From Balneolaceae bacterium (lineage in GTDB: Bacteria > Bacteroidota > Rhodothermia > Balneolales > Balneolaceae), in contig JAEPNO010000005.1 of NCBI GenBank assembly GCA_017643365.1, positions 1 to 64,000 of the forward strand: a stretch of 64,000 bases of DNA, written 5' to 3'. The notes below the pieces were generated by a model. It saw nothing but the letters and a program-made list of their open reading frames with translations, did no database searches and was not told where the DNA came from. Made by a program: the position numbers and the translations under genes. Shown one piece after another: positions 14,947 through 52,815 of this stretch; position 1 is the first letter of the stretch, and each line of letters opens with the position of its first letter.

Positions 14947-15049
14947 ACATAGTTACTTCTAAGAGAAAGCTGATAATAAGAGAAATGTAAGCTAGAAACA
15001 CTTTTGTAGGCTCAAATTTTTATCCTATTTTCTCAAATCATATTTAATG

Positions 15050-15163
15050 CTTATTAAGAAAGACTGAGGGAATGGGCCCGTAGAAGTCTTGGCAACCGTC
15101 TGAACTAACAAACTTAGAAAAGGTGCCAAATCCCACTTCGCTATTATTGCGAAGACAAATAAG
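15050..15163 (+). promoter_or_regulatory. SAM-I (S-box) riboswitch
   Basis: The conserved S-box core is readable in order: P1 5' strand cttatt (15050-15055), the aagaaag segment, gagggaatgggcccg, gaagtcttggcaacc, a variable hairpin, then ggtgccaaatccc, a short hairpin (ttcgctattattgcgaa) and the P1 3' strand aataag (15158-15163). It sits directly upstream of the split metH and metF genes, exactly where S-adenosylmethionine control is expected. After P1 there is only a weak hairpin (agtga / tcact, 15162-15181) with a poor T-run. A second aataag at 15189-15194 could compete for P1. Whether control is transcriptional or translational is open. Confidence 0.92.
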
Positions 15164-15209
15164 TGAGTTTTTTCCTTCACTCTTTGTTAATAAGCCAATT
15201 CCGAACAGA

Positions 15210-44873: not shown

Positions 44874-45007
44874 ACCAAAAGCTGATATAATTTTCTGCGT
44901 CAATGTTACGGATATGCCGTCCTTAAATCCACTACGATATTGATTGCTTTAAATTGTGGAAATTCTTCGTTGCATTTAGAAAAGTGCCCCTTTATCTTCA
45001 GCGCGTT

Positions 45008-45082
45008 ATGCAAATTATCGTTTTAAATGAAACTACTTGGTGGTGGCCTGTTGATAACTCAACAGCGGGCTTGCTGCATTAA
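45008..45082 (+). CDS. trpL: Tryptophan leader peptide
   Basis: 24 codons starting ATG CAA ATT, with three tandem Trp codons (TGG TGG TGG) at codons 11-13, then Pro-Val-Asp-Asn-Ser-Thr, ending LLH and TAA at 45080-45082. The sequence is too short for gene finders but is placed exactly where a ribosome would stall over the attenuator hairpins. The only other ATG in the area starts a frame with Gly codons instead of Trp. No strong Shine-Dalgarno motif is visible. Confidence 0.85.
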   Translation: MQIIVLNETTWWWPVDNSTAGLLH

Positions 45083-45119
45083 TTTGCTGCTAACAGAAAT
45101 TGAATAAATACCCGCTGTT
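45048..45119 (+). promoter_or_regulatory. trp attenuator: alternative 1:2 and 2:3 hairpins
   Basis: Pause hairpin 1:2: ctgttga (45048-45054) with tcaacag (45059-45065), perfect, 4-nt loop. Antiterminator 2:3: aacagcggg (45061-45069) with cccgctgtt (45111-45119), perfect 9 bp. They share residues 45061-45065, so only one can form. A ribosome stalled on the three Trp codons (45038-45046) would cover strand 1 and free strand 2 for the antiterminator. A ribosome that finishes at 45082 would mask strand 2 and let the terminator form. This is the classical ribosome-mediated design. Confidence 0.85.
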
Positions 45120-45144
45120 CCTTTGGAAGAGTGGGTTTTTTTTT
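45110..45144 (+). terminator. trp attenuator terminator (hairpin 3:4)
   Basis: Stem acccgct-g-ttcc (45110-45121) with ggaa-g-agtgggt (45125-45136): 11 pairs including one G-U, with one G-G mismatch and a ttt loop. It is followed by nine T (45136-45144). Its left arm is the same segment used in the antiterminator, so the structures exclude each other. Being upstream of trpE it fixes the trpE start downstream of 45144. Confidence 0.88.
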
Positions 45145-45162: not shown

Positions 45163-46647
45163 GTGGTTTTAAATAAACAATCGACTTTGGATAAAAAAGA
45201 ATTTCTTTCACTCGCACAATCTTATACGGCTATTCCGGTATACAAACGGCTACTCGCTGATGTACTCACTCCGGTTTCTCTATTCTTAAATATTCGGGAA
45301 AACGCTCGATCCCCTTTTCTATTGGAATCGGTTGAAGGGGGCGAGCAACTGGCGCGTTATTCCTTTTTGGGGCGTAATCCGTATCAAGTGTTAACCTTCG
45401 ATGGCGAACGAACTACGCTCGAAAAGCATGGAAAAACATCAACGTTGGATCAAGGTTATTTCGATGCACTTCGAAACCTCACCACAGCGTATTCTGAGCC
45501 CTTTATCCCGGATCTACCAAGATTGACAGGCGGTGCAGTTGGTTTTTCAGCCTACGATACATTTCGCCTAGTAGAACATCTGCCTAACACTCCACCCGAC
45601 GATCTGCATATTCCCGAGGCCATTTGGTCGTTTTACGATGAGATCTTTGCTTTCGATCACGTGAAGCATCAAGTGGTTTTGATTAAAACGGTCTTTGTGG
45701 ATGAACATGACGATCTGGAACAAGCTTACGATGACGCAATTGCTGCTTTAGATGAGATGGAAGCAGCCGCAACCGGTGGAAACTTTCAAAAGCGCTCGTT
45801 TAAAATTCACCCCGAATCACTTTCCAGCAACATGGAGAAATCCTATTTCGAGGAAATTGTGAATAAGGGGAAAGAATACATTTACGAGGGAGATATCTTT
45901 CAGGTGGTGCTTTCGCAGCGTTTTCAGGCGGATATGGAAGGTGACGCGTTTATGCTGTATCGGGCGCTACGAATGGTGAATCCTTCGCCATATTTGTTTT
46001 TCCTAGATTTTGATGGATTCCACATCGTAGGATCATCGCCCGAAGTATTGGTAAGCGTGCAAGATCGAAAAGTGAAAGTATTGCCGATCGCCGGAACTCG
46101 TCCCAGAGGTAAAAATCACGTCGAGGATGTTGCTTTAGAGCAGGATTTACTTGCCGATCCCAAAGAACTGGCAGAACATGTTATGTTGGTTGATTTAGGT
46201 CGAAATGATTTATCACGCGTATGCACCCCGGGAACGGTTAAGCTTGTTCGTGATCATGTGATAGAGCGATATTCGCATGTGATGCATATTGTGAGCGAAG
46301 TTGAAGGCCACTTGGCTGAAGAAAACACCTCGGTAGACGCATTGATGCAGTGTTTCCCGGCAGGAACGGTGAGTGGGGCACCTAAAATTAGAGCGATGGA
46401 AATAATCGACGAGTTTGAGCCCACCAAAAGAGGCATTTATGCAGGGGCAGTTGGTTATTTCGATTTTTCCGGAAATATGGACACCTGCATCGCTATCCGA
46501 ACCATGGTGGTAACGCCAAACAAAGTGTACATTCAAGCCGGAGCAGGAATTGTGGCCGATTCCGATCCGCACAAAGAATTCGAAGAAACTCAAAATAAAG
46601 CCGGAGCATTAGTTCAGGCACTAAGCATTGCACTAGACATACAATGA
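45163..46647 (+). CDS. trpE: Anthranilate synthase component I
   Basis: 494 aa from the GTG at 45163; an alternative TTG at 45187 gives the usual DKKEFLSLAQSY start and is nearly as likely. An in-frame start at 45100 lies within the attenuator and is rejected. The Trp feedback-binding element LLESVEGGE is present near residue 50, and the chorismate core shows SPYLFFLDFDGFHIVGSSPE, GTRPRG and CFPAGTVSGAPK, ending with the YIQAGAGIVADSDP motif. It makes anthranilate from chorismate using ammonia from TrpG. Overlaps trpS by 4 nt. Confidence 0.95.
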   Translation: MVLNKQSTLDKKEFLSLAQSYTAIPVYKRLLADVLTPVSLFLNIRENARSPFLLESVEGGEQLARYSFLGRNPYQVLTFDGERTTLEKHGKTSTLDQGYFDALRNLTTAYSEPFIPDLPRLTGGAVGFSAYDTFRLVEHLPNTPPDDLHIPEAIWSFYDEIFAFDHVKHQVVLIKTVFVDEHDDLEQAYDDAIAALDEMEAAATGGNFQKRSFKIHPESLSSNMEKSYFEEIVNKGKEYIYEGDIFQVVLSQRFQADMEGDAFMLYRALRMVNPSPYLFFLDFDGFHIVGSSPEVLVSVQDRKVKVLPIAGTRPRGKNHVEDVALEQDLLADPKELAEHVMLVDLGRNDLSRVCTPGTVKLVRDHVIERYSHVMHIVSEVEGHLAEENTSVDALMQCFPAGTVSGAPKIRAMEIIDEFEPTKRGIYAGAVGYFDFSGNMDTCIAIRTMVVTPNKVYIQAGAGIVADSDPHKEFEETQNKAGALVQALSIALDIQ

Positions 46648-47630
46648 GCAAAAAGAAAACTATTTTATCAGGAATTCAGCCTTCGGGTAAACTCCATATT
46701 GGTAACTACTTCGGGGCTATTCGTCAACACATTGCTATGCAGAACGAAGGCGATGCGTTCTACTTTATTGCCAATTACCATTCGCTTACAAGTGTTCGAG
46801 ATGGCAAACAATTGTATCAAAACACCATCGATGTAACGCTTGATTATCTCGCTCTTGGTTTAGATCCCGAAAAAGCGACTTTCTTCGCACAATCGGATGT
46901 GCCACAAGTAACTGAGTTGGCATGGATTCTTGGTACTCTCACTCCGGTAAGTTTGATGGAGAAAGGAGTGTCTTACAAAGATAAAATAGCGGCTGGATTA
47001 AGTCCGAACGTGGGTTTGTTTACCTATCCGATCCTTCAAGCCGCTGATATCTTGATTTATCATTCGGATGTAGTGCCTGTTGGAGAAGATCAAAAACAAA
47101 ACATTGAGATTTGCCGTGACTTAGCAGGGAAATTCAATCGAGAGTACGATGGCGAATTCTTAGTTATTCCCGAAGATCATATTGTGAAATCGGTGGCAGT
47201 GGTTCCCGGAACGGATGGACGTAAGATGAGCAAGAGTTATGGTAACACGATCTCCATTTTTGGGGAAGGAAAATCCTACAAAAAAACCATCATGTCGATT
47301 CAGACAGATTCAACACCGCTCGAAGATCCCAAAGATCCCGAAACCGACAATGTGTTTGCGTTGATCAAACTGTTTGCATCGAAAGAGGAGCAAGAGGAAA
47401 TCGCTGCCAAATATCGAGCCGGTGGCTATGGTTACGGACATGCAAAGAAAGAGCTACTGGGCTTCATCCAGAGCTATTTTGGGGATGCACTCGAAAAGCG
47501 GAAACAGCTTGAACAAGATATCGATTATGTGAAAGATGTTCTTGCCGAGGGCGGAAAGAAAGCCCGAATCAGAGCTGAGCAGGTGATGGAGCCAATCCGT
47601 GAAGTGACCGGAATTATAAGGAGCTTCTGA
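46644..47630 (+). CDS. trpS: Tryptophanyl-tRNA synthetase
   Basis: 328 aa, class I synthetase of normal length. HIGN (HIGH-like) at residues 18-21 and KMSKS at 194-198 are both present, with GIQPSGKLHIGNYFGA and DVVPVGEDQKQ. It charges tRNA-Trp. Its place between trpE and trpG, with ATGA-type overlaps on both sides, is unusual and puts charging capacity under the same attenuator as the biosynthetic genes. Confidence 0.95.
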   Translation: MSKKKTILSGIQPSGKLHIGNYFGAIRQHIAMQNEGDAFYFIANYHSLTSVRDGKQLYQNTIDVTLDYLALGLDPEKATFFAQSDVPQVTELAWILGTLTPVSLMEKGVSYKDKIAAGLSPNVGLFTYPILQAADILIYHSDVVPVGEDQKQNIEICRDLAGKFNREYDGEFLVIPEDHIVKSVAVVPGTDGRKMSKSYGNTISIFGEGKSYKKTIMSIQTDSTPLEDPKDPETDNVFALIKLFASKEEQEEIAAKYRAGGYGYGHAKKELLGFIQSYFGDALEKRKQLEQDIDYVKDVLAEGGKKARIRAEQVMEPIREVTGIIRSF

Positions 47631-48190
47631 TGGTACTCATTATCGACAACTACGATTCGTTTACCTACAATTTAGTGCACCTGATTGCCGTAGAAACTGA
47701 GGACTATAAAGTGATCAGAAACGATGCAATGAGCATCGAAGAAATCAAGGCGCTAAACCCAACAAAGATTCTAATTTCGCCCGGCCCGGGAAGACCGCAC
47801 GAAGCCGGCATCACCGAACAAGTGATTCAAGAACTTGGCGATGAGATTCCGATTTTAGGAGTGTGTTTAGGTCATCAAGCAATTGGCGAAGTGTTTGGGG
47901 TAAAAGTAGTTCATGCGCCCACCTTAATGCATGGTAAGGTGAGTGACGTGGCTCATGATGGGAAATCCATCTTCGAAAATGTAGAAAAAGATTTTACCGC
48001 AACACGCTATCATTCTTTAATTCTTGATCCCGAAACTATCCCAGATGAATTAGAAGTTACAGCACGAAGTGGCGATATTGTGATGGGTGTTCGTCATCGC
48101 TCGAAACCCATAGAAGGCATTCAATTTCATCCGGAGAGTATTCTTACCACAGAAGGACCTAAAATGATTTCAAACTGGTTAAAACAATAA
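47630..48190 (+). CDS. trpG: Anthranilate synthase glutamine amidotransferase component
   Basis: 186 aa, single-domain class I amidotransferase. Nucleophile Cys79 in ILGVCLGHQAIGE, catalytic His167 and Glu169 in IQFHPES, and the NYDSFTYNLVH start typical of TrpG/PabA. It supplies ammonia to TrpE. Start overlaps the trpS stop (TGATG) and its end overlaps trpD by 1 nt. It could also serve PabB, as in other bacteria. Confidence 0.94.
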   Translation: MVLIIDNYDSFTYNLVHLIAVETEDYKVIRNDAMSIEEIKALNPTKILISPGPGRPHEAGITEQVIQELGDEIPILGVCLGHQAIGEVFGVKVVHAPTLMHGKVSDVAHDGKSIFENVEKDFTATRYHSLILDPETIPDELEVTARSGDIVMGVRHRSKPIEGIQFHPESILTTEGPKMISNWLKQ

Positions 48191-49212
48191 TGGATTTTAA
48201 AGAAATATTAGAGCGTTTATCCTTCTCCGAAGATTTGATTCCAGAAGACGCAGACTTTGCTATTCGACAAATTATGTCGGGGAAAGTGAGCAACGAGCAA
48301 GTAGCCGGATTTCTCACGGCAATGCGACTTAAGGGAGAGACTCACCAAGAACTGACTGCTTTTGTAAAGGTGATGCGGGAGAAATCGGAAAAAGTAAACG
48401 TAAATGTAGATGGTGCCATCGATTTGGTGGGCACGGGTGGCGATAAATCAGGGACATTCAACATTTCCACCGTTTCCTCATTTATTGTTGCCGGAGCTGG
48501 AGTGCCGGTAATTAAACACAACAACCGTAGTGCATCGAGCAAATGCGGTAGTGCTGATGTGTTAGAAAAAATGGGCGCCGACATCGAGTTAAGAGCCAGT
48601 CAGGTTGAACGAGTGTTTAATGAAGTCGGAATTGCGTTCATGTTTGCACCAATGTTTCACCCGGCTATGAAATACGTAATGCCAGCCCGCCGTGCGCTTG
48701 GATTCCGAACTTTTTTCAATATTCTCGGCCCAATGTGTAATCCGGCAGGAGTTCGTCGCTATGTAATTGGCGCATTCAGCAAAGTAGTTGCCGAAAAGAT
48801 GGCGCACATCTTAGCAAATCTCGAAACTGAGTTCGCTTACACTATCAATTCGCACGATGGATTAGATGAATTGAGTTTAACTTCGCAAGTGGATGTATTC
48901 GAATTAAAGGACAGTATTTTATCGATGCCGATTTTATTCGACCCGGAAACATTGGGCTTTCAACGCTATTCTATGGCTGATATCACAGGTGGCGGTCCTG
49001 AAGAAAATGCCCAGATTTTTGAAAACATTTTGGATAACAACGCTACAAATGCTCAACGTGATATCGTGTTACTTAACGCGGCCTTTGGGATTCAGGCTTC
49101 GGGCAAAGTGGTTAGTTTAGGTGAAGCGAAAATCCTGGCAGAAGAAAGTCTGGAATCAGGCAAAGCGCGTGATATTTTTGATGCCTATGTGGAGGCGAGT
49201 AGAAACGTATAA
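48190..49212 (+). CDS. trpD: Anthranilate phosphoribosyltransferase
   Basis: 340 aa. Glycine-rich PRPP site DLVGTGGDKSGTFNIST, KHNNRSASSKCGSADVLE, and the HDGLDELSL segment near 235. It adds phosphoribose to anthranilate. Part of the tight trp run, 2 bp before trpC. Confidence 0.95.
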   Translation: MDFKEILERLSFSEDLIPEDADFAIRQIMSGKVSNEQVAGFLTAMRLKGETHQELTAFVKVMREKSEKVNVNVDGAIDLVGTGGDKSGTFNISTVSSFIVAGAGVPVIKHNNRSASSKCGSADVLEKMGADIELRASQVERVFNEVGIAFMFAPMFHPAMKYVMPARRALGFRTFFNILGPMCNPAGVRRYVIGAFSKVVAEKMAHILANLETEFAYTINSHDGLDELSLTSQVDVFELKDSILSMPILFDPETLGFQRYSMADITGGGPEENAQIFENILDNNATNAQRDIVLLNAAFGIQASGKVVSLGEAKILAEESLESGKARDIFDAYVEASRNV

Positions 49213-49214
49213 TT

Positions 49215-50030
49215 ATGCCAACCATTTTAGATAAGATTGTTACTCAAACAGCTGAAGACCTTAAAATGAGGAAGAGAAAGCTGCATTTTAACGACCTGCA
49301 TTCTCTTGAAGGCTTCGAGAAAGAAAGGAAATCGTTTAAAAAAGCACTTCAAGCTGAGGGTGTTTCGGTGATTGCCGAAGTAAAGAAAGCATCGCCATCA
49401 AAAGGAATAATTCGAGAAGATTTCAATCCGGTTGATATTGCGCTTCGGTATCAGGATGGAGGAGCATCGGCTATTTCCGTGCTCACCGACGAACCATTTT
49501 TTAAGGGTGATTTGGCCTACTTGTCGGATATTTCTAAACGAGTTGTACTGCCATTGTTAAGAAAGGATTTTATTATCGATCCTTATCAAATCAAAGAAGC
49601 ACGTGCTTTCGGTGCTGATGCCTTTTTAATCATCATGGCCATTGTTTCGGATGCACAATTGGATGAATTACTTGCAGCCGGAAAAGAGTTTGGACTAGAT
49701 GCTTTGGTAGAATGTTACGATCAGGAAGACTTTGATCGAGTTCCTTTTGATCGAGTAGATATTTTGGGTGTGAATAATCGCGATCTCAAGAATTTCGAAG
49801 TGGATGTGCATCGTGGAATTTCCATCCTACAACAAGCTCCCGAAGGTACCGTACTGGTTTCAGAAAGTGGGATTTCAACCGGAAACGATATGGCGATGCT
49901 TCAACACAATAAGATTGATACTGTGTTGATAGGAGAACACTTTATGCGTCAACCCGATCCCGGGAAGGCAGTATCTCTTTTGAAAGAACAAGGCGAAGAA
50001 ATGTACGATCGGAGTTTGCAAAATGGCTAA
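49215..50030 (+). CDS. trpC: Indole-3-glycerol phosphate synthase
   Basis: 271 aa, TIM barrel. Catalytic Lys in VIAEVKKASPSKG, LLRKDFIID, the Glu in ALVECYD, GVNNRDLKNFEVD and the phosphate site SESGISTGND. It closes the indole ring. Separate from TrpF here (not the fused form of E. coli); the two genes overlap by 8 nt. Confidence 0.95.
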   Translation: MPTILDKIVTQTAEDLKMRKRKLHFNDLHSLEGFEKERKSFKKALQAEGVSVIAEVKKASPSKGIIREDFNPVDIALRYQDGGASAISVLTDEPFFKGDLAYLSDISKRVVLPLLRKDFIIDPYQIKEARAFGADAFLIIMAIVSDAQLDELLAAGKEFGLDALVECYDQEDFDRVPFDRVDILGVNNRDLKNFEVDVHRGISILQQAPEGTVLVSESGISTGNDMAMLQHNKIDTVLIGEHFMRQPDPGKAVSLLKEQGEEMYDRSLQNG

Positions 50031-50664
50031 TCAAACCAAAGTGAAAATTTGTGGAATCACCAATTTGGAGGATGCCCGATTCGCATCCGGTGCCATGGTT
50101 GATTATCTGGGATTCATCTTCGTGGAATCGAGTCCGCGCTACATCGATCCTGAAAAAGCGGGAGCGATCGTAAACTGGGTGGAGGGACCGGAAAAAGTAG
50201 GTGTATTCATGGATCAACCGCTTGATGATGTAAATGTGCTTGCCAAATTTTCGGGAATTGATCTGGTGCAGTTGCACGGAAACGAAACACTCGAGTATTG
50301 CCAATTGATTGAAAAACCGATTATCAAGGTGATTCATGTTGGGGAAACATCCTCAAAAGAAGAAATTGAAACACAGGTAGCGTTGTACAGCGAAGTTGCT
50401 GAGTTTCTTTTGTTCGATACCAAAGCAAACGGCAAATTTGGTGGAACGGGAAAGACTTTTGATTGGTCGTTATTAAACGAGATCGCTGATGATATTCCAT
50501 TCTTTCTTGCCGGTGGATTGAATCCAGAGAATGTATCGGGAGCCATAGAAATGGTTCAGCCTTTTGCGGTGGATTTGAACAGTGGTGTAGAAGAAGAGCC
50601 TGGACTCAAAGATTTCGAAAAAATTGAACAACTGATGGAAAACCTGAAGTCGTATATAATATGA
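50023..50664 (+). CDS. trpF: Phosphoribosylanthranilate isomerase
   Basis: 213 aa. Catalytic Cys in VKICGITNLEDARFA, VGVFMDQPLDDV, VQLHGNET, the catalytic Asp in LLFDTKANGKFGGTGKTFDW, and the phosphate site AGGLNPENV. It converts PRA to CdRP, the TrpC substrate. Followed by a 112-bp gap with a palindromic hairpin before trpB. Confidence 0.95.
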   Translation: MANQTKVKICGITNLEDARFASGAMVDYLGFIFVESSPRYIDPEKAGAIVNWVEGPEKVGVFMDQPLDDVNVLAKFSGIDLVQLHGNETLEYCQLIEKPIIKVIHVGETSSKEEIETQVALYSEVAEFLLFDTKANGKFGGTGKTFDWSLLNEIADDIPFFLAGGLNPENVSGAIEMVQPFAVDLNSGVEEEPGLKDFEKIEQLMENLKSYII

Positions 50665-50684
50665 TTTCAATTTAACGTCACCCT

Positions 50685-50710
50685 GATCCGCCGACTGGCG
50701 GAGAAGGATC
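50685..50710. repeat. Palindromic hairpin between trpF and trpB
   Basis: Inner stem tccgcc / ggcgga (loop gact, 50687-50702) nested inside gatcc / ggatc. No T-run follows, so it is not an intrinsic terminator. The 'ccctga...aaggatc' frame resembles a known kind of short intergenic repeat of this group. It might still affect mRNA processing or stability between trpF and trpB. Confidence 0.6.
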
Positions 50711-50776
50711 AACAATATTAATAAATTGGCAGATTAAACACCGATAAACTCGGCTCGCTGAATCACAACGAACGAT

Positions 50777-51979
50777 ATGCAAACAACAGAAACCAAGACA
50801 ACCTACAATCAACCAAACGCCCGCGGTTACTTTGGCGATTATGGCGGAAAGTTTGTACCTGAAATTCTGATTCCGGCTATCACTGCCTTGGAACAAGAGT
50901 ATCAGAAAGCGCAAAATGATCCTGAGTTTTTACGCGAGTATCACGAACTATTGGAAGAGTATGTTGGTCGTCCAACTAAGTTAACATTCGCAGATAAACT
51001 CACTGCGCATTACGGCAAAGCCAAGATTTATTTAAAGCGGGAGGATTTGTGCCACACCGGTGCGCATAAAATCAATAATGCAATCGGGCAGATTCTACTG
51101 GCTCGACGCATGGGCAAAACCCGCATCATTGCCGAAACGGGTGCAGGTCAGCATGGTGTGGCAACGGCAACCGCTTGCGCAAAGTTTGGGATGGAATGCA
51201 TCGTTTACATGGGCGCAGAAGACACCGTTCGCCAAAAATTGAATGTAGATCGCATGCAGTTGATGGGCGCTGAGGTTCGGGAAGTTACCAGTGGTTCTCA
51301 AACATTGAAAGACGCCACTAACGAGGCCATTCGCGATTGGGTGACCAACGTTGAAGATACATTTTACATCATTGGTTCGGTGGTTGGTCCTCATCCTTAC
51401 CCTATGATGGTTCGCAATTTCCATCGTGTGATTGGAGATGAAGCCAAGCGACAGATTTTAGAGAAAGAAGGACGTTTGCCCGATTATTTGGTTGCTTGCG
51501 TTGGCGGTGGATCAAACGCTTTGGGACTGTTTTATCCTTTTATGGACGATGATGTACAGATTATTGGCGTTGAAGCAGCGGGCTATGGAGTGGATTCCGG
51601 CCAAACTGCGGCTACCATCACCAAAGGAACACCGGGTATTTTACATGGTTCGTTGAGTTATTTGCTCCACGATCAAAACGGACAAATTGAGCTGGCACAT
51701 TCTATATCAGCAGGGTTAGATTATCCGGGAATTGGTCCTGAGCATTCCTTTTTACACGATTCCGGCCGAGTACAATATCATGCAGTAACGGATGAAGAAG
51801 CCATGGAAGCCGTGAAGTTATTGTCACAAAAAGAAGGGATTATTCCGGCACTAGAGACAGCCCACGCGTTTGCATGGTTAGAAAACCTGATGCCAACCAC
51901 TTCCAAAGATGAAATTGTGATATTGAATCTCTCCGGTCGTGGTGATAAGGACATGAAAACAATCTCTGAAAACCTGTAA
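50777..51979 (+). CDS. trpB: Tryptophan synthase beta subunit
   Basis: 400 aa. PLP lysine Lys98 in [29 protein letters not shown], the phosphate loop [13 protein letters not shown], and [12 protein letters not shown] near the end. Joins indole and serine to tryptophan in an alpha2-beta2 complex with TrpA. First gene after the 112-bp gap, so it may have an extra promoter, which I cannot identify. Confidence 0.96.
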
Positions 51980-51999
51980 GGGCGGATTGCTATCCGCCC
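51980..51999 (+). other. Perfect 8-bp hairpin between trpB and trpA
   Basis: gggcggat, loop tgct, atccgccc, starting 1 bp after the trpB stop. Very GC-rich for this region. Without a T-run it is unlikely to be a full terminator, but it could stabilise the 3' end of processed trpB mRNA or reduce read-through into trpA. Confidence 0.65.
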
Positions 52000-52017
52000 C
52001 AATTATTGTCTGAATAG

Positions 52018-52815
52018 ATGAACCGAATTACAAAGAAATTTCAAGAAAAAGGCGCTGATGAAAAGCTAATGAGCTTGTTCATTACGGCCGGATACCCCGA
52101 TTTAGAATCCACCGTTGATTTGGTGCTGGGTTTCGAGAAAAACGGAGCCGATCTGATCGAATTAGGAATGCCGTTCAGTGATCCATTGGCTGATGGACCA
52201 ACCATTCAGTATTCAAGCGATGTGGCCATCGAAAAAGGTATTTCCATCGATAAAATCATGGATATGGTCGGAGAAATCCGAAAGCATTCCGAGATTCCGA
52301 TTATTTTGATGGGATATATGAATCCGGTGCTTCGCTACGGAGTTGCTAAGTTTTGCGAACGTGCAAAAGCCGTGGGCGTAGATGGCTTTATCTTGCCGGA
52401 CATCCCTGTTGAAGAAAGTGGCTTGATCGAACATGAAGCTGCAAAGGTGGATATTCCGATTATTTATTTAGTAGCTCCAAATACGAGTGATGATCGTATG
52501 CAGCTTGCGGATCAGAAATCAGGTGGGTTTGTGTATTGTGTTTCTGTAACCGGTGTGACCGGAGCCCGAAGTGGTGAAGAAGTATCGCAATCAGTAAATA
52601 CCTTCATCGAAAGAGTTGGTAAAAACGTAACCAAGAATCCGAAGATGGTCGGGTTTGGGATAAAATCATATCAAGATGCACAACAAATAGCTGAAAAAGC
52701 GGATGGTTTTATTGTGGGCAGTGCATTAATCAATACGATAAAAGATGTGTATCCACAACAAAACTGGAAAGAGCACGTCTTTGAATTCGTACATTCTTTA
52801 AAATTTGGAAAATAG
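52018..52815 (+). CDS. trpA: Tryptophan synthase alpha subunit
   Basis: 265 aa. Catalytic Glu in DLIELGMPFSDPLADGP, catalytic Asp in GFILPDIPVEE, YLVAPNTSDDR, and the phosphate loop VTGVTGAR with VGFGIKS. It cleaves indole-glycerol phosphate and passes indole to TrpB. Starts 38 bp after trpB. Followed after 11 bp by the DUF4837 gene. Confidence 0.95.
   Translation: MNRITKKFQEKGADEKLMSLFITAGYPDLESTVDLVLGFEKNGADLIELGMPFSDPLADGPTIQYSSDVAIEKGISIDKIMDMVGEIRKHSEIPIILMGYMNPVLRYGVAKFCERAKAVGVDGFILPDIPVEESGLIEHEAAKVDIPIIYLVAPNTSDDRMQLADQKSGGFVYCVSVTGVTGARSGEEVSQSVNTFIERVGKNVTKNPKMVGFGIKSYQDAQQIAEKADGFIVGSALINTIKDVYPQQNWKEHVFEFVHSLKFGK

Follow-up and report, generated by a model that had tools for sequence, protein, structure and literature searches.

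The DNA at 45008–45144 of the window, by which we mean the whole 64,000-nucleotide stretch analyzed, very probably encodes a ribosome-mediated attenuator that governs transcription of the trp operon, with Trp-dependent read-through predicted from the sequence. The region combines a short ORF rich in Trp codons with alternative stems that are conserved in relatives, covary, and are spaced to fit a stalled or a terminating ribosome; known alternative regulators of trp operons are absent.

Anatomy of the trp leader and its operon

The leader peptide ORF, designated trpL, occupies 45008–45082 of the + strand and specifies, in 24 codons, the peptide MQIIVLNETTWWWPVDNSTAGLLH followed by a stop codon. 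Its start and its three tandem Trp codons (WWW; 45038–45046), which would act as the sensor, are kept in Balneolales, and the Trp codons are nearly invariant in alignment A1. These tandem codons for the end product of the pathway thus lie in a short ORF ahead of the operon. Three stems on the + strand were read directly from the sequence. In stem 1:2, CTGTTGA (45048–45054; segment 1, the protector) pairs with TCAACAG (45059–45065) over 7 bp within the leader ORF. In stem 2:3, the antiterminator, segment 2 (AACAGCGGG, 45061–45069) pairs with CCCGCTGTT (45111–45119) over 9 bp. The terminator stem, 3:4, joins segment 3 (45110–45121) to segment 4 (45125–45136, the 3' arm) through 11 pairs and one G·G mismatch, and leads into a T9 tract (45136–45144) that is also seen in alignment A1. 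Stems 2:3 and 3:4 are mutually exclusive through their common segment 3, and the intrinsic terminator with its U-tract stands before the first structural gene, trpE, which begins at 45187. The preliminary description had given the 24-codon leader with three Trp codons, stems of 7, 9, and 11 pairs, and the T9 tract directly ahead of trpE; all of these proved exact when the sequence was reread. It had also proposed folding of the leader. The fold predicted for 45008–45144 (−40.6 kcal/mol; z = −3.75) contains the terminator, together with an extended version of 1:2 (45040–45053 with 45063–45077) that takes in Trp codons 2 and 3.

The trpE gene (45187–46647, + strand; PF04715 and PF00425) most likely starts at the TTG codon at 45187, because this codon aligns with the ATG of relatives and is also TTG in the closest relative. 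Among named proteins, the closest relative of TrpE is that of a Balneolaceae metagenome-assembled genome (L001; 88%), in agreement with the "Balneolota-like" placement in the preliminary description. Downstream on the same strand lie trpS, encoding tryptophanyl-tRNA synthetase (46644–47630; PF00579, the family of W and Y synthetases), and trpG, trpD, trpC, trpF, trpB, and trpA (47630–52815). The operon therefore reads trpE-trpS-trpG-trpD-trpC-trpF-trpB-trpA. The position of trpS between trpE and trpG recurs in every Balneolales locus with enough flanking sequence (L001 and L201–L223), and trpE and trpS are adjacent in locus L002. Placement of trpS under the same switch means that poor charging of tRNA-Trp could raise the supply of the amino acid and its synthetase together.

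We propose a model in which transcription would begin ~3 nt upstream of the leader ATG, with a ribosome following RNA polymerase without the aid of a Shine-Dalgarno signal. When charged tRNA-Trp is ample, the ribosome would pass WWW, end at the stop codon at 45080, and cover segment 2; segment 3 would then pair with segment 4, and transcription would stop in the T9 tract. When charged tRNA-Trp is scarce, the ribosome would stall at 45038–45046, covering segment 1 and leaving segment 2 free. Segment 2, which begins ~24 nt downstream of the first Trp codon, would then pair with segment 3, blocking the terminator and permitting transcription of trpESGDCFBA. If no ribosome were present, stems 1:2 and 3:4 would form and transcription would stop.

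Conservation and covariation in Balneolales

TrpE is present in 108 of 113 Balneolales genomes; upstream DNA from 100 genomes together with the window provided 101 sequences. A short ORF containing WWW and followed 78–125 nt on by a T6 run was found in 82 of these 101 trpE upstreams, compared with none of 10,100 dinucleotide shuffles. Leaders with WW occur in 88 of the 101 upstreams and in 25 of the 10,100 shuffles (0.25%). Additions made by eye, which comprised WW or WxW leaders (WCW, WRW) and leaders with weak or interrupted T-runs (including those of G009, G034, G086, and G058), brought the total to about 93 of 101. The association of a Trp leader with a T-run in Balneolales is not due to chance. 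The preliminary description had made its reading depend on relatives keeping the tandem Trp codons, and alignment of their trpE upstreams reveals that these codons are conserved across the order.

Exceptions were few. Upstreams of trpE in genus g17 (six genomes; L124, L127, L132, L135, L136, and L143) have a promoter-like box and a terminator and are without tandem Trp codons; these are small genomes, in which the sensor appears to have been lost or replaced. In genome G092 (locus L148), the short ORF before trpE reads MDKSYYPLTEATN and is without Trp codons; it has Tyr-Tyr-Pro where many relatives have Trp-Trp-Pro. The leaders of G036 and G079 are doubtful. A model search of eight genomes for further Trp attenuators returned one strong match per genome in seven, always at trpE, and a match of E = 5e-4 at trpE in the eighth (G082). 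No second strong match was found in the eight genomes, and the weaker matches that were inspected were mostly ordinary terminators.

Residues that flank WWW vary while the Trp codons persist, which indicates that the codons, rather than the peptide, are what is kept. This variation bears on two readings in which the leader product itself would act. Termination in the leader would yield a small mRNA that is nearly leaderless, as is rnTrpL of Sinorhizobium meliloti, and this RNA or the leader peptide could act in trans like rnTrpL/peTrpL, in addition to attenuation in cis and not as a substitute for it. However, peptide sequence is conserved only in the Trp run and no target is known; we consider such an additional function unlikely. 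A leader peptide that contains Trp could also be imagined to sense free tryptophan through nascent-peptide arrest, as does TnaC. TnaC of E. coli depends on particular residues and controls a catabolic operon, whereas the operon here is biosynthetic and the later part of the peptide varies in both length and sequence. Arrest of this type is highly improbable because nothing but the Trp run is constant.

Covariation of the stems was evaluated on alignment A1, which contains 62 aligned leaders, against 500 shuffles and controls in which the pairing was slid. For 2:3, 83.5% of cells are paired and covariation reaches 0.212, compared with 0.131 in shuffles (0 of 500 reach the observed value) and 0.03–0.10 in slid controls (best 0.100). 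For 3:4, the corresponding values are 94.4% of cells paired and 0.461, compared with 0.180 in shuffles (0 of 500) and 0.02–0.13 in slid controls (best 0.128). Six pairs of 3:4 are changed on both sides, although in alignment A1 the count of such pairs is by itself not beyond that of shuffles for either 2:3 or 3:4. We give more weight to the slid controls because the double-change count does not exceed that of shuffles and because shuffles ignore the relatedness of the sequences. Columns 45066, 45114, and 45132 vary in step across the three segments, and the longest uninterrupted 2:3 helix averages 7.8 pairs, compared with 5.0 in shuffles. The covarying stems on which the preliminary description had also rested its case are thus seen in both the antiterminator and the terminator.

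The 7-bp stem 1:2 is not conserved by column, with only 48.5% of cells paired. For this reason it was evaluated in each sequence separately, by folding the stretch from the Trp codons through segment 2 in 90 genomes. Segment 2 was paired with an upstream partner in 81 of the 90 sequences (median −11.9 kcal/mol). The spacing of the leaders is also informative. Measured from the first Trp codon, segment 2 starts at a median of 24 nt and the T-run lies at ~100 nt. A stalled ribosome has a footprint that extends roughly 12–15 nt past the A site, which leaves the start of segment 2 out of reach of a ribosome that stalls on the Trp codons. In most leaders, the ORF ends 12–51 nt past the first Trp codon, so that a ribosome terminating there would extend across segment 2.

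The 3:4 hairpin with its T9 tract is a strong intrinsic terminator by itself, and could in principle be a plain one, either constitutive or serving upstream transcription, that is preceded by a coincidental short ORF. Against this reading, the order retains both the Trp codons and a stretch able to pair with the terminator arm; moreover, the neighboring gene on the other side of the leader is divergent (minus strand) and a promoter box lies just before the leader. We regard it as very unlikely. Control by another Trp sensor, with the leader ORF secondary, has precedents in the trp operons of other phyla (TRAP, TrpR, T-box, or riboswitch), but is scarcely probable here: neither mtrB (TrpBP, TRAP) nor trpR was found in the genome, in searches whose controls behaved as expected, and Rfam searches detected no T-box or riboswitch at the trpE site. 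Elsewhere in the window, the sole Rfam match at cut-off was a SAM riboswitch at 15048–15165 (RF00162; 84.1 bits).

Promoter position and the predicted 5' end

The attenuator is preceded by elements in the TTG-N20-TAnnTT arrangement of a Bacteroidota-type promoter (consensus in PMC6847099): a −33 element, TTG, at 44970–44972 and a −7 element, TATCTTCA, at 44993–45000, both on the + strand, the latter close before the leader start. A TAnnTT box that ends 3–8 nt (mostly 5–7) ahead of the leader start is found in 87 of 90 genomes; the shuffle expectation for such a box is 11%, and the same measure finds a box at 7 of the 53 long ORFs of the window. Among the 87 boxed Balneolales upstreams, 78 have TTG 20 nt upstream of the box. 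In Flavobacterium, the box is located at −12 to −5 (PMC6847099). On the assumption that spacing in Balneolota is alike, the Balneolales leaders would probably have a 5'UTR of 0–4 nt and thus be near-leaderless; in the window, the transcription start is predicted at ~45005, ~3 nt before the leader ATG.

Leaderless mRNAs account for 5.5% in F. psychrophilum, and 87% of predicted transcripts in F. johnsoniae have leaders of more than 10 nt. The near-leaderless arrangement of trpL appears to be kept throughout the order, even though most mRNAs of these two Flavobacterium species carry longer leaders. Close spacing between box and start is likewise shared by numerous leaders from the class and phylum; exceptions are L250 and L262, in which the box ends 18–20 nt before the ATG. 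We lean toward the view that Balneolota and related Bacteroidota place a classical trp attenuator on a leaderless or near-leaderless RNA, where the ribosome would load at the 5' end without a Shine-Dalgarno signal and where loading and polymerase movement would be coupled from the first bases. This layout raises a question accessible to experiment: how attenuation is synchronized in bacteria that make no use of Shine-Dalgarno signals.

Known relatives, distribution and other leader peptides

This kind of switch is already known, and Balneolales are a further case. The E. coli-type Trp_leader (RF00513) likewise has a tandem-Trp leader, stems 1:2, 2:3, and 3:4, and a U-tract before trpE, and its model aligns end to end over the Balneolales leaders. 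Scores remained below its cut-off of 41 bits, at 17.8 bits for the window and 34.3 bits for the best of 12 Balneolales loci. In contrast to RF00513, the leader in the window has a predicted near-leaderless start without a Shine-Dalgarno signal and no TrpR partner in the genome, and the operon holds trpS. The E. coli leader stops between segments 1 and 2, whereas the ORF in the window runs through segment 2 and stops beyond it (45080–45082); the predicted outcome is the same.

Bacteroid-trp (RF01692) is a Trp leader peptide RNA described in Bacteroidetes (PMC2864571), which in GTDB terms are relatives at the level of phylum. It scored above cut-off at L250 and L262, two loci of one family, where the box lies 18–20 nt before the ATG rather than 3–8 nt as in Balneolales. 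Its cut-off of 49 bits was not reached in the Balneolales loci searched, with one locus at 30.1 bits and no match to the window up to E = 10. The trpL/rnTrpL attenuator of S. meliloti resembles the arrangement predicted for the window in that the leader ATG marks the 5' end of its RNA; it is not subject to transcription repression (PMC7298713). It differs in its 14-codon leader, its phylum, and its documented functions in trans (PMC7298713), and the likeness drawn here is one of layout. Leader-peptide attenuation is also suspected upstream of amino-acid operons in F. psychrophilum, a member of Flavobacteria, with no trp example named in the main text (PMC9723704).

A paper from 2010 stated that no such attenuators had been shown outside Proteobacteria and Actinobacteria (PMC2965389), and PMC1262725 records leader-peptide attenuators for Actinobacteria. 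The preliminary description had considered trp attenuators established for Proteobacteria, a view outdated by RF01692 in Bacteroidetes and by the actinobacterial cases. Its other statement, that none was known from Balneolota-like bacteria, still holds for the papers we found, although the 2010 survey by Lopatovskaya et al., represented here by its citation in PMC4833913, may list some. A textbook switch, with support from covariation, is hereby extended to a group for which we found no description.

Beyond the order, 20 other genomes of the class and 28 from elsewhere in the phylum were scanned for a tandem-Trp leader with a T-run at about 90–120 nt; 18 of each set have one, by a looser criterion than the Balneolales count, to which alone the shuffle control applies. 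Family f27 (two genomes) and several other members of the phylum are without a tandem-Trp leader. Of 80 named TrpE loci scanned for the pattern, almost all of them from outside the order, most are without the motif; it was present in Marinimicrobia, Ignavibacteriae, and Melioribacteraceae. This distribution suggests that the switch is old or was repeatedly gained in Bacteroidota.

Leader-peptide attenuation looks like a common mode of control in the group because his, ilv, and Cys/Met leaders occur in it together with that for trp. A weak match to the trp model led to Cys/Met-rich short ORFs (for example, MNCCCMCMCMMCNTPTVVDVMC and MNQKKPTTNILAPAHRNMCCMMCCMMMPRKVVERIC) that precede, in six Balneolaceae genomes, a gene with a rhodanese domain. 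These ORFs, located ~200–300 bases upstream of the match (L279–L284; also L272 and L278), are followed by a hairpin and T-run, and a GGTAGTGG-type segment is complementary to the terminator arm. They are candidates for a Cys/Met-responsive attenuator; the rhodanese gene was not found in the genome of the window. In the PheA region of that genome, no Phe-rich leader passed our filter. A His-rich leader, MNSTLHHIPSIHHDRHHGHHHVH, precedes hisG on contig 22 of the same genome (L252:2387–2458), with a GTG start a few nucleotides after a TATCTTCT box and no obvious intrinsic terminator after it; relatives L255, L257, and L259 have it as well. Also on contig 22, an Ile/Val-rich leader, MKNSVIPVVIINVIGYKHRSGNAIC, precedes ilvD (L251:3672–3749) and is followed by a hairpin (GAGCCTTCC...GGAAGGC) with a T9 tract; this leader recurs in relatives L254 and L256.
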